DNA from: Phycisphaera sp.
GTDB lineage: Bacteria > Planctomycetota > Phycisphaerae > Phycisphaerales > UBA1924
Direction of reading: 5' to 3'
Assembly (NCBI GenBank): GCA_025916675.1
Contig: CP098402.1
Coordinates: 3,529,205 to 3,593,204 of the forward strand
Length of the DNA: 64,000 bases
The translations under genes and the position numbers were made by a program. Under the pieces are notes generated by a model. It was given only the letters and a program-made list of their open reading frames with translations. It did not search any database and was not told the origin of the DNA. Positions 7,283 through 49,787 of the stretch are shown piece by piece. Positions within the stretch are counted from its first letter, which is position 1; each line of letters starts with the position of its first letter.

Positions 7283-9195
<1,913 letters not shown>

Positions 9196-9196
9196 A

Positions 9197-9283
9197 GCGC
9201 GTTCCCTCCGCCGGCATAACCCGGATCAGGTGGTGCGGGTGCGTCTCAGCCCCCACAGACAAGTGGGGGCGCCCCGAGCGAGT
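9197..9283 (-). promoter_or_regulatory. TPP riboswitch (THI element) controlling thiC
   Basis: Read on the minus strand, the region has the full THI-box order: CTCGGGG, a P3 hairpin closed by CCCCCAC/GTGGGGG, CTGAGA, CACCTGATCCGGGTTA, TGCCGGCGGAGGGA. These match the pyrimidine-sensing and pyrophosphate-sensing arms of known TPP aptamers such as E. coli thiM. The terminal GGAGGGA is about seven bases from the thiC ATG, so ligand-stabilised P1 pairing would hide the ribosome binding site. This points to translational control; no terminator hairpin follows. Confidence 0.97.
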
Positions 9284-9316
9284 TGAATGATAGGTGGCCG
9301 CCCAGACCGAACTGGC

Positions 9317-48576: not shown

Positions 48577-48661
48577 AGGGCGCGGTGGGATTCGAACCCA
48601 CGGTTGGATTTCTCCAAACGGATTTGCAATCCGCCCCATTAGTCCACTCTGGCACACGCCC
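48577..48661 (-). tRNA. tRNA-Cys (GCA) with long variable arm
   Basis: About 85 nt on the minus strand. The acceptor stem GGGCGTG/CGCGCCC, anticodon loop TTGCAAA (anticodon GCA, bases 48625-48627) with stem GCGGA/TCCGT, T-arm GTGGG-TTCGAAT-CCCAC and discriminator U73 all fold cleanly. U73 and GCA identify cysteine. The D-arm has a three-pair stem and the variable region forms a TTGGA/TCCAA hairpin with a GAAA loop, as in class II tRNAs (Ser, Leu, Tyr) rather than ordinary Cys. The 3' CCA is not encoded. Confidence 0.9.
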
Positions 48662-48755: not shown

Positions 48756-49787
48756 TCAGAACGCCCGATTGACCACAGCCTCGGCCATTGCCAGCAGGAT
48801 CCGACGGGCCGGCGAGTCGACGACGGCGTCCAGGTGCCCGCGAGCCCTGCCCACGATGGTCTCCGAGGCCCGCTGGGCGTGCTCGACAGAGCCGGTAGTC
48901 TCCAGCCGCTGGCGGAGGCGGGCGGGGGCGTCGCCCGAGTTTTCGTGGGCGGCACGGACGGCGAGCGCCAGGCTGTGGGCCCGCTCGTCTGGGCTGGCGG
49001 CCCGGAGGTGGTGGATGACCGGGAGCGTGAGCTTGCCCTTACGCGCGTCTCGGCCCACGCTCTTGCCCACCACCTCCTCGCGGCCGGTCAGGTCGAGCAG
49101 GTCGTCGCGCACCTGGAAGGCCGATCCGATCTGCCGGCCAAAGGACTCGAGCGCCGCGACGATCTCTGGTGTGCCGCCCGCGGTCACGGCTCCGAGTTCG
49201 CACGCGGCGGCGATGAGCTCGGCCGTCTTGCGATTGATGATCTCGAAGTAAGTGGCTTCGTCGAGCGAGAGGTCGTCGCGGCGGTCGAGCTGGAGCAGCT
49301 CTCCGCTGCACACCACCATGCTGGCGCGCGCCACGCGCAGGGCGGTGGCCTGCTCGTCGAGCGTGGAGCAAAGGTGGTACGCGCCGGCGATGAGGTAGTC
49401 GCCCAGGATCACGGCCGTCTCGTTGCCGCTCATGGCGTTGACGGTGCGTCCGCGACGGCGCGTATCGGCCTCGTCGAGCACGTCGTCATGCACCAGCGTG
49501 GCCATGTGGACCATCTCGCACACGGCACCGATGACCTCCAGTGCCTCGCCCTTGGGCCCGCGCAGCACTTTCGTGAGATCGCCATGGGACGCGCCCGCCG
49601 AGAGCGCGACGAGCGCGGGGCGCAGCATCTTGCCGCGGTAGCGTTCGACGTGCTGGGTCAGCCGCTGGACGGCCAGAATATCGCTGTGCAGGGCGTCGTC
49701 GAAGCGGTCGGCCACGCGGCCCAGGAACGAGGCCAACTCGCCCTGGACGGGTTCGAGCGAGGCGTCCAGATCCAGCATTTCTCGCAT
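48756..49787 (-). CDS. polyprenyl diphosphate synthase (trans-isoprenyl, IspB/octaprenyl type)
   Basis: 343 residues. The first aspartate-rich motif is LVHDDVLDEADTRRRGRTVN (DDVLD at 101-105); the second is FQVRDDLLDLTG (near 230). Preceding RGKMLRPALVAL and GDYLIAGAYHL are typical. It elongates farnesyl or geranylgeranyl diphosphate for quinone or membrane-lipid carriers; chain length cannot be read. GGGAGG precedes the ATG. It is divergent from the TPR-sulfotransferase gene. Confidence 0.93.
   Translation of the reverse strand: MREMLDLDASLEPVQGELASFLGRVADRFDDALHSDILAVQRLTQHVERYRGKMLRPALVALSAGASHGDLTKVLRGPKGEALEVIGAVCEMVHMATLVHDDVLDEADTRRRGRTVNAMSGNETAVILGDYLIAGAYHLCSTLDEQATALRVARASMVVCSGELLQLDRRDDLSLDEATYFEIINRKTAELIAAACELGAVTAGGTPEIVAALESFGRQIGSAFQVRDDLLDLTGREEVVGKSVGRDARKGKLTLPVIHHLRAASPDERAHSLALAVRAAHENSGDAPARLRQRLETTGSVEHAQRASETIVGRARGHLDAVVDSPARRILLAMAEAVVNRAF

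Follow-up and report, generated by a model that had tools for sequence, protein, structure and literature searches.

Introduction

A tRNA gene that carries the cysteine anticodon GCA together with a long, hairpin-forming variable arm raises the question of what the tRNA is, where its arm came from and whether cysteine codons are still read as cysteine. Whether a tRNA belongs to class I or to class II is commonly presented as fixed by its amino acid, the long arm being found on tRNA-Ser, tRNA-Leu, tRNA-Sec and bacterial tRNA-Tyr, and the class II systems are distinguished from one another by the geometry at the base of the arm. The gene considered here lies in a 64,000-nucleotide stretch of a Phycisphaera chromosome (the window, to which coordinates refer unless a locus is named). 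A reading of the sequence alone had offered two explanations, namely, a lineage-specific cysteine tRNA or a serine- or selenocysteine-derived tRNA whose anticodon had changed to GCA. In PMC4810241, tRNA-Cys is stated outright to belong to class I.

Results

Structure of the gene

The features of the locus to which we refer throughout are as follows.

48577..48661, minus strand: tRNA-Cys(GCA) gene of 85 nt, class II (long variable arm), CCA not encoded (ARAGORN, RF00005).
48602..48617, minus strand: variable region of 16 nt, a UUGGA-GAAA-UCCAA hairpin followed by C and C48 (direct reading, covariation in relatives, hairpin statistics).
48625..48627, minus strand: anticodon GCA, in the loop UUGCAAA (direct reading, ARAGORN).
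48636..48652, minus strand: D arm with the three pairs CCA/UGG, a G13.A22 mismatch and C10-G25 (direct reading, comparison of relatives).
48577..48577, minus strand: discriminator U73, a cysteine identity element (direct reading; role from the accessible part of PMC9976931).
47346..48515, minus strand: gltA, citrate synthase, downstream neighbour, also found beside the short-loop tRNA-Cys of the congener G270 (Pfam PF00285, 382 bits; synteny).
48756..49787, minus strand: polyprenyl synthetase gene, upstream neighbour, likewise in G270 (Pfam PF00348, 210.7 bits; synteny).

ARAGORN calls tRNA-Cys(gca) at 48577-48661 on the minus strand, and RF00005 matches the same span over the full model (54.3 bits, E 6.4e-9), the alignment having an insertion where the variable region lies. 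The gene reads GGGCGUG UG CCA GAGUGGACUAA UGG G GCGGA UUGCAAA UCCGU UUGGAGAAAUCCAACC GUGGG UUCGAAU CCCAC CGCGCCC U. When read by hand, the variable region UUGGAGAAAUCCAACC forms five Watson-Crick pairs closed by a GAAA loop and is followed by C and C48. The acceptor and T arms measure 7/5, with a five-pair T stem and no bulge. With 16 nt and five pairs, the variable region is of class II, defined as at least 10 nt with a stem (definition taken from the portion of PMC7609411 available to us), and the short variable loop of class I is lacking, so that the gene is a class-switched, non-canonical tRNA-Cys. Its assignment to cysteine comes from the GCA anticodon and U73, the principal determinants of cysteine identity in both E. 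coli and yeast (PMC9976931), and from orthology to other tRNA-Cys genes. The minimum of the predicted fold of the unmodified single strand is not the cloverleaf.

The hairpin is maintained through compensatory changes. Among 25 distinct relatives with a 14-nt variable region, all three pairs of the V stem have changed on both sides and 98.7% of the cells pair, and over the whole cloverleaf of 25 distinct genes 99.8% of the cells pair, as compared with 88.7% in shuffles. The stems of the 45 distinct long arms, drawn from 85 genes, average 3.36 pairs, as against 2.21 after shuffling (maximum 2.49 in 500 shuffles). Taken singly, the window hairpin is equalled by 1.3% of shuffles of its own variable region, while a short arm (12 nt, with a 2-bp stem) has its equal in about 70% of its shuffles. 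As we read them, three arms of the UGUG... type cannot pair unless a bulge is admitted. The tRNA-Cys(GCA) with U73 and a five-pair variable hairpin that had been described from the sequence alone is thus borne out by ARAGORN, RF00005, hand reading and covariation.

The only tRNA-Cys found in the genome

The host genome is a single contig of 3.6 Mb with a completeness of 99.97%. RF00005 finds 46 tRNAs in it, and ARAGORN, over 45 loci holding all 46, reports one tRNA-Cys, this being the window gene. The sequence-only reading had proposed listing all tRNA-Cys genes of the genome, as a second, ordinary tRNA-Cys could account for all cysteine decoding; no such gene was found among the 46 tRNAs. It is exceedingly improbable that the window gene is a pseudogene or an annotation artefact. 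Most other tRNAs of the genome do score higher (it ranks 42nd of 46) and it does not encode CCA, but its stems are all intact, its relatives covary and it is the only tRNA-Cys found; moreover, CCA after the discriminator is encoded by none of the 46 tRNAs (four merely end in CC followed by A73), and a match with such a gene was obtained in 26 of the 77 sampled genomes of the order.

One CysRS above the family cut-off, with both the catalytic and the C-terminal domain, is present in the host genome. At a threshold of E 1e-60, a single CysRS match was obtained in 29 of 30 and in 27 of 28 genomes. Several CysRS sequences of family f1 lie below the curated cut-off irrespective of arm state, and an apparent absence of CysRS in G261 and G172 was rejected as a threshold effect, a single 638-aa frame of G261 holding three matched segments of the enzyme and G172 having a fragment of it at a contig end. 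Indirect Cys-tRNA synthesis via SepRS was considered and dropped, as the profile search returned no SepRS above cut-off in any of 59 genomes. Matches below cut-off (at most 32.3 bits) were seen in 50 of these 59 genomes and also in 13 of 14 control genomes, including E. coli, and are presumably PheRS cross-hits. No CysRS column with disjoint residues in long- and short-arm genomes was found in 56 rows and 8 contrasts, this being a weak test for which the chance mean is 0.11 columns.

Some further observations were made on the RNA genes of these genomes. The lowest tRNA score of the host genome, 46.8 bits, belongs to a tRNA-Pro with the anticodon AGG (L049, G000:C1:3235344-3235418), the 3' flank of which is GTAGTG, unlike the TT that follows most other tRNAs. 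A TPP riboswitch is located at window positions 9185-9286 on the minus strand (59.5 bits). The tRNA-Sec model yields matches of 64.9-72.5 bits in G135, G090, G167, G102, G161 and G125, the next best being 54.4, and selenocysteine use looks patchy within the order.

Short- and long-arm orthologs within the order

We searched 298 genomes of the class with a pattern that spans anticodon and T arm and so exposes how long the variable region is, and 60 loci were fetched from 56 genomes of the order and from two outgroups; 59 genes were read, including the window gene. The comparison set comprises 57 of 65 genomes of the order, apparently Phycisphaerales, and the 2 outgroups. Left out of the tree were G096, G149, G177, G193, G205, G228, G243 and G294, all of family f4 and all short. 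G125 and G046 each hold, besides the intact gene that entered the comparison, a 3' half left uncalled by ARAGORN (L110 and L118).

The length of the variable region is bimodal in the 59 genes, with 36 short (5-6 nt) and 23 long (12-16 nt) forms, and it reaches 18 nt in relatives beyond the tree genomes. Long and short forms number 13 and 14 in family f1, 9 and 3 in f3, and 1 and 11 in f4, while f2 (four genes), f5 (two) and the outgroups (two) contain only short forms. Both forms occur within the window's own genus, where the variable region is long in G000, G003, G013, G039 and G255 and short in G270. Outside of the variable region, the tRNA-Cys of G270 differs from the window gene at one of 68 positions (position 27), its variable region AAUUC is an ordinary 5-nt loop, and its neighbours are again the citrate synthase and polyprenyl synthetase genes.

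The D stem with three pairs had been taken from the sequence alone as a sign of a Ser-, Leu- or Tyr-like class II body. The three pairs are indeed there, but short-loop orthologs have them as well, with A.A or G.A at 13.22 in all 59 genes, and we thus rejected the D stem as class II evidence. The pair C10-G25 is found in 53 of 53 genes of families f1, f3, f4 and f5, while the other 6 genes lack it, a distribution that would suit one early event in the common ancestor of the four families. G9/G13 occurs in 22 of 23 long genes versus 7 of 36 short genes, a link that falls short of significance when relatedness is taken into account (independent contrasts, median p 0.125); A9/A13 is seen in 6 of 62 long-arm GTDB genes among the matches listed.

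Gains and losses of the arm

On an RpoB tree of the 59 genomes, the arm label needs 10 changes, 8 of which are forced by starred branches, while shuffled labels need 18.5 changes on average, with none of 500 shuffles as low as 10. G270 is nested within its long-arm congeners by starred branches, and a two-state model gives a long arm to the ancestor of the genus with P 0.998. The log-likelihood under this model is -31.3 when gains and losses are allowed (root short), -41.3 for gains only and -30.9 for losses only (root long). As the gains-only model fits far worse, losses occurred. Losses only with a long root fits as well as the mixed model, and Dollo reconstruction places one gain followed by 12 losses. 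Losses of the arm are thus supported, while the gains could be one to several.

The base of the arm and its possible sources

We counted the unpaired nucleotides between the arm stem and position 48. With Watson-Crick pairs only, the 45 Cys arms have two in 33 cases, one in 9 and three in 3, as compared with two in all 31 tRNA-Tyr, values of 1, 1, 2, 1 and 1 in five tRNA-Leu, and 3, 0, 0 and 1 in four tRNA-Ser. If G.U pairs are allowed, the Cys arms have one unpaired nucleotide in 26 cases, two in 15, zero in 2, three in 1 and eight in 1, as compared with two in 22 and zero in 9 of the 31 tRNA-Tyr, and zero in all four tRNA-Ser and all five tRNA-Leu. The window arm has one unpaired nucleotide before C48, or two if U44 is unpaired. 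With G.U counted, the arm base is unlike that of tRNA-Ser in nearly all cases; tRNA-Tyr is closest by the Watson-Crick count, the arm being in part Tyr-like. Because its arm base is closest to tRNA-Tyr and unlike tRNA-Ser, the window tRNA should not be accepted by SerRS.

These results bear directly on a serine or selenocysteine origin, under which a tRNA-Ser or tRNA-Sec would have had its anticodon changed to GCA and the product may insert serine or selenocysteine at Cys codons. We regard such an origin as very improbable. The long arm itself speaks for it, as do the roughly 41-43 bits that the tRNA-Sec model, with its cut-off of 47, gives to several long-arm tRNA-Cys; the short-loop gene of G084, however, scores likewise. 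The body of the window gene is that of the congener's short-loop tRNA-Cys at the same locus (the single difference in 68 positions), it has U73 rather than the G73 present in all four tRNA-Ser of the genome, its arm base is unlike that of these four, and its acceptor and T arms are 7/5. No tRNA-Sec above the RF01852 cut-off was found in the genome, in which the best match to that model is tRNA-Ser(UGA) with 45.0 bits. The serine- or selenocysteine-derived alternative of the sequence-only reading is accordingly not supported. Membership in tRNA-Ser (G73, arm stem adjoining 48) was rejected on U73 and the one or two unpaired nucleotides before C48, and membership in tRNA-Sec (RF01852 cut-off, UCA) was rejected on that score and on the GCA anticodon.

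The arm could instead have come from tRNA-Tyr by gene conversion, a route that we consider possible, albeit on balance doubtful. In geometry, Cys arms of 14 nt (UGGC-NNNN-GCC-UUC) are similar to the tRNA-Tyr arms found in the order, and they often share the GGC/GCC stem with the tRNA-Tyr of the same genomes, and C10-G25, also found in tRNA-Tyr, is present in the Cys genes of f1, f3, f4 and f5, to which all long-arm members of the tree belong. The loops, however, differ, with GNRA in 31 of the 45 distinct long Cys arms versus UUAC, AUAC and others in tRNA-Tyr; no shared tract is seen by eye in the flanking anticodon and T stems; the 12- to 16-nt arms of other genera are unlike Tyr; and f5 has C10-G25 with no long arm. 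In addition, convergence on a geometry that SerRS refuses would give the same appearance.

Distribution in Planctomycetota and beyond

A pattern for long arms only matched in 32 of 393 genomes of the phylum. The order accounts for 77 of these 393 genomes by our own count, and the 26 genomes with a match and a long-arm tRNA-Cys called by ARAGORN consist of 22 from the tree set, G580 and three more; G060 matches additionally through a tRNA array. Of the 316 Planctomycetota genomes outside of the order, 5 match the pattern, none with an ARAGORN tRNA-Cys at that place. It should be noted that this pattern misses at least one real long-arm gene, that of G143.

The same type of scan over GTDB gave 119 loci, 80 of them listed, with an ARAGORN tRNA-Cys at the match in 63; one (L168) was dropped as doubtful, leaving 62 long-arm tRNA-Cys genes among the 80 loci listed. 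Among these listed matches, the record titles of the 62 are nearly all Phycisphaerales, Phycisphaeraceae, Phycisphaerae or Planctomycetota. A class II tRNA with GCA is present in an Actinomycetota MAG (L186:1116-1201), in an array of 18 called tRNAs; RF00005 scores it at 52.6 bits, ARAGORN misses it, and its GCA anticodon and long arm are from our own reading. G060, whose other tRNA-Cys is short, carries a second, class II tRNA-Cys with a 17-nt variable region (L436:2776-2860) in an array of 22 tRNAs. The suggestion, made from the sequence, of a lineage-specific cysteine tRNA is supported, in that confirmed long-arm tRNA-Cys genes among the 393 Planctomycetota genomes were limited to one order, although phages (see below) and one Actinomycetota MAG have them as well.

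Certain loci contain only tRNA-like pieces. Records of Nocardioides, Mycobacterium and Micromonospora (L145, L169 and L204) contain tRNA-like 3' halves that bear GCA and a stretch resembling a variable arm, with no 5' half recognizable by reading in the three loci, and three tandem tRNA-like copies with TGCAAA and a long variable-like region occur in G326 (L407, L439 and L632), where ARAGORN calls no tRNA-Cys.

Phage copies and half-sites

When applied to IMG/VR, the GTDB pattern matches 65 contigs (L442-L506), of which 54 have a long-arm tRNA-Cys. These 54 cases represent 32 distinct genes, all with U73 and 29 with an encoded CCA, and further tRNAs are found in the stretch in 52 of the 54 contigs. 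Considering pattern matches only, long forms are seen in 17 stretches (at least two of which are half-sites) versus at least 120 short ones, so that long forms are a minority in IMG/VR and their ratio is bounded rather than determined. In L487, L493, L504 and L506, the 12-nt arm is identical to that of the chromosomal gene of G273. Cultured phages with the long-arm gene were sought by BLAST, in four queries of phages and one with the window gene, and no record could be confirmed as a long-arm tRNA-Cys. The Acinetobacter matches cover about 61 bases where the query has 69, and their loop is thus probably short; several other matches are annotated as tRNA-Tyr, tRNA-Asn or tRNA-Lys, and some as tRNA-Cys, and one query had no match.

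Three contigs hold the 3' half alone of a Phycisphaerales-type long-arm tRNA-Cys (L446:4310-4346, L453:1487-1523 and L489:8817-8853). In L446 and L453, a gene for a tyrosine integrase (PF00589, 50.7 and 46.5 bits) is separated from the half by some 160-170 bases, and L489 has an open frame bearing this recombinase motif at a similar distance. Since 3' halves that include the V arm adjoin integrases in L446 and L453, the presumed att site spans the arm. Such 3' half copies are also present in host MAGs, namely, G125, G046 and two other GTDB MAGs.

Integrative elements could accordingly swap the arm: with an att site running from the anticodon arm to the 3' end, integration would replace the variable region and could switch the class. 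The half copies described above, both beside integrases and in host MAGs, and the long-arm genes of many phage contigs are in line with this, yet we consider it an unlikely source of the arm. A related integrase was found near only 2 of the 140 tRNA-Cys or pattern loci fetched, the neighbours are unchanged in the one clear loss (G270), the half copy and the intact gene share the arm in G125, G046 and MAG PL25a (L165 and L187), and no long-arm element was caught in a short-loop host. With related integrases at 2 of 140 loci only, transfer by integration should be taken as a lead and not as a result.

A broader view of the same data would have class II tRNA-Cys as recurrent and partly mobile, carried by phages, tRNA arrays and integrative elements, with gain and loss in hosts driven by defences that cleave tRNAs at the variable region or anticodon arm and with CysRS indifferent to the change. 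This reading we hold to be quite unlikely. A related case is the tRNA-Tyr of phage T5, which in the part of PMC13096335 consulted has a cleavage-resistant variable loop and was shown to confer resistance to retron-Eco7. An altered variable region on a phage-borne tRNA is common to both, while the tRNA is a different one and the copies described here are known from genes alone.

Discussion

Comparison with known systems

With the canonical bacterial class I tRNA-Cys, the window gene shares GCA, U73, the 7/5 arms, its status as sole gene and an orthologous body, and with the short-loop orthologs of the order also the three-pair D stem with the mismatch at 13.22. It differs in the variable region, which is 5-6 nt in the canonical form and here 12-16 nt (to 18 nt in relatives) and hairpin-forming. 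Like bacterial tRNA-Tyr, long-arm tRNA-Cys has two unpaired nucleotides before C48 when Watson-Crick pairs are counted and C10-G25 in the D stem (in those tRNA-Tyr that were read); tRNA-Tyr differs in its anticodon GUA and in A73.

Among unusual tRNAs, selC* tRNA-Cys, of which Mukai et al. 2017 is reportedly the source, also combines cysteine identity with a long arm. As described in the part of PMC7609411 consulted, selC* tRNA-Cys has GCA (some UCA), U73 and a long variable arm, is built like tRNA-Sec with 8/4 arms and a bulged A51a, and lies beside selB*/cysS* in some lineages. The window gene has 7/5 arms and a five-pair T stem without the A51a bulge, and it is the sole tRNA-Cys in a genome with an ordinary CysRS, whereas selC* is, as we read the review in that part, an extra isoacceptor beside a normal tRNA-Cys; membership in selC* was rejected on both counts. 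Allo-tRNAs, with a 12-bp acceptor branch (8/4 or 9/3) and serine identity according to the same partial source, were likewise rejected, given 7/5 and U73. The nev-tRNAs of nematodes (Hamashima et al. 2012), as presented in the accessible part of PMC4033280, place a class II arm on a tRNA with class I codons, carry class II recognition elements in the arm, with nev-tRNA-Gly decoding as leucine, and in the two that were measured show very low expression relative to canonical tRNAs. They join a Ser/Leu-type class II body, as far as that source goes, to a class I anticodon, and were rejected since the window body is that of tRNA-Cys. PMC2474678, seen in part, is also among the closest related literature.

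Besides selC*, we found no published account of a class II tRNA-Cys in the open-access literature, which largely excludes subscription papers and thus offers weak evidence of novelty. Of the possibility, raised in the sequence-only reading, that many Phycisphaerales with the same tRNA had already been described, the many carriers are real and the published description was not found in that literature.

The preferred reading

The window gene is, in our judgement, likely to be the normal and sole elongator tRNA-Cys of its host, descended from an ordinary short-loop tRNA-Cys, with an arm that was gained and then lost in several relatives, charged by CysRS and reading UGY codons. In this scheme, the ancestor would have been an ordinary short-loop tRNA-Cys, the arm would have been acquired once or several times within f1, f3, f4 and f5, and several descendants, including a member of the window's own genus, would have lost it again. 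An ordinary CysRS would charge the tRNA with cysteine by way of U73 and the anticodon GCA, both left untouched by the arm, and the tRNA would read UGU and UGC. The arm may be tolerated because a class II-like D stem (three pairs and a purine.A22 mismatch) is present in the tRNA-Cys of the order in any case, and because the one or two unpaired nucleotides before C48, closest to tRNA-Tyr and unlike tRNA-Ser, should lead SerRS to reject it.

Within one order, then, the sole tRNA-Cys crosses the line between the classes, and within one genus a near-identical molecule crosses back. Such near-isogenic natural pairs can serve to probe the effect of the arm on charging, SerRS rejection, stability, decoding and phage resistance, while the phage copies and att-like sites extend the feature beyond one chromosome lineage. 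The class-switched tRNA-Cys most likely functions as an ordinary tRNA-Cys with the code unchanged, and the surprise lies in the switching of class and in the occurrence in phages rather than in an altered genetic code.
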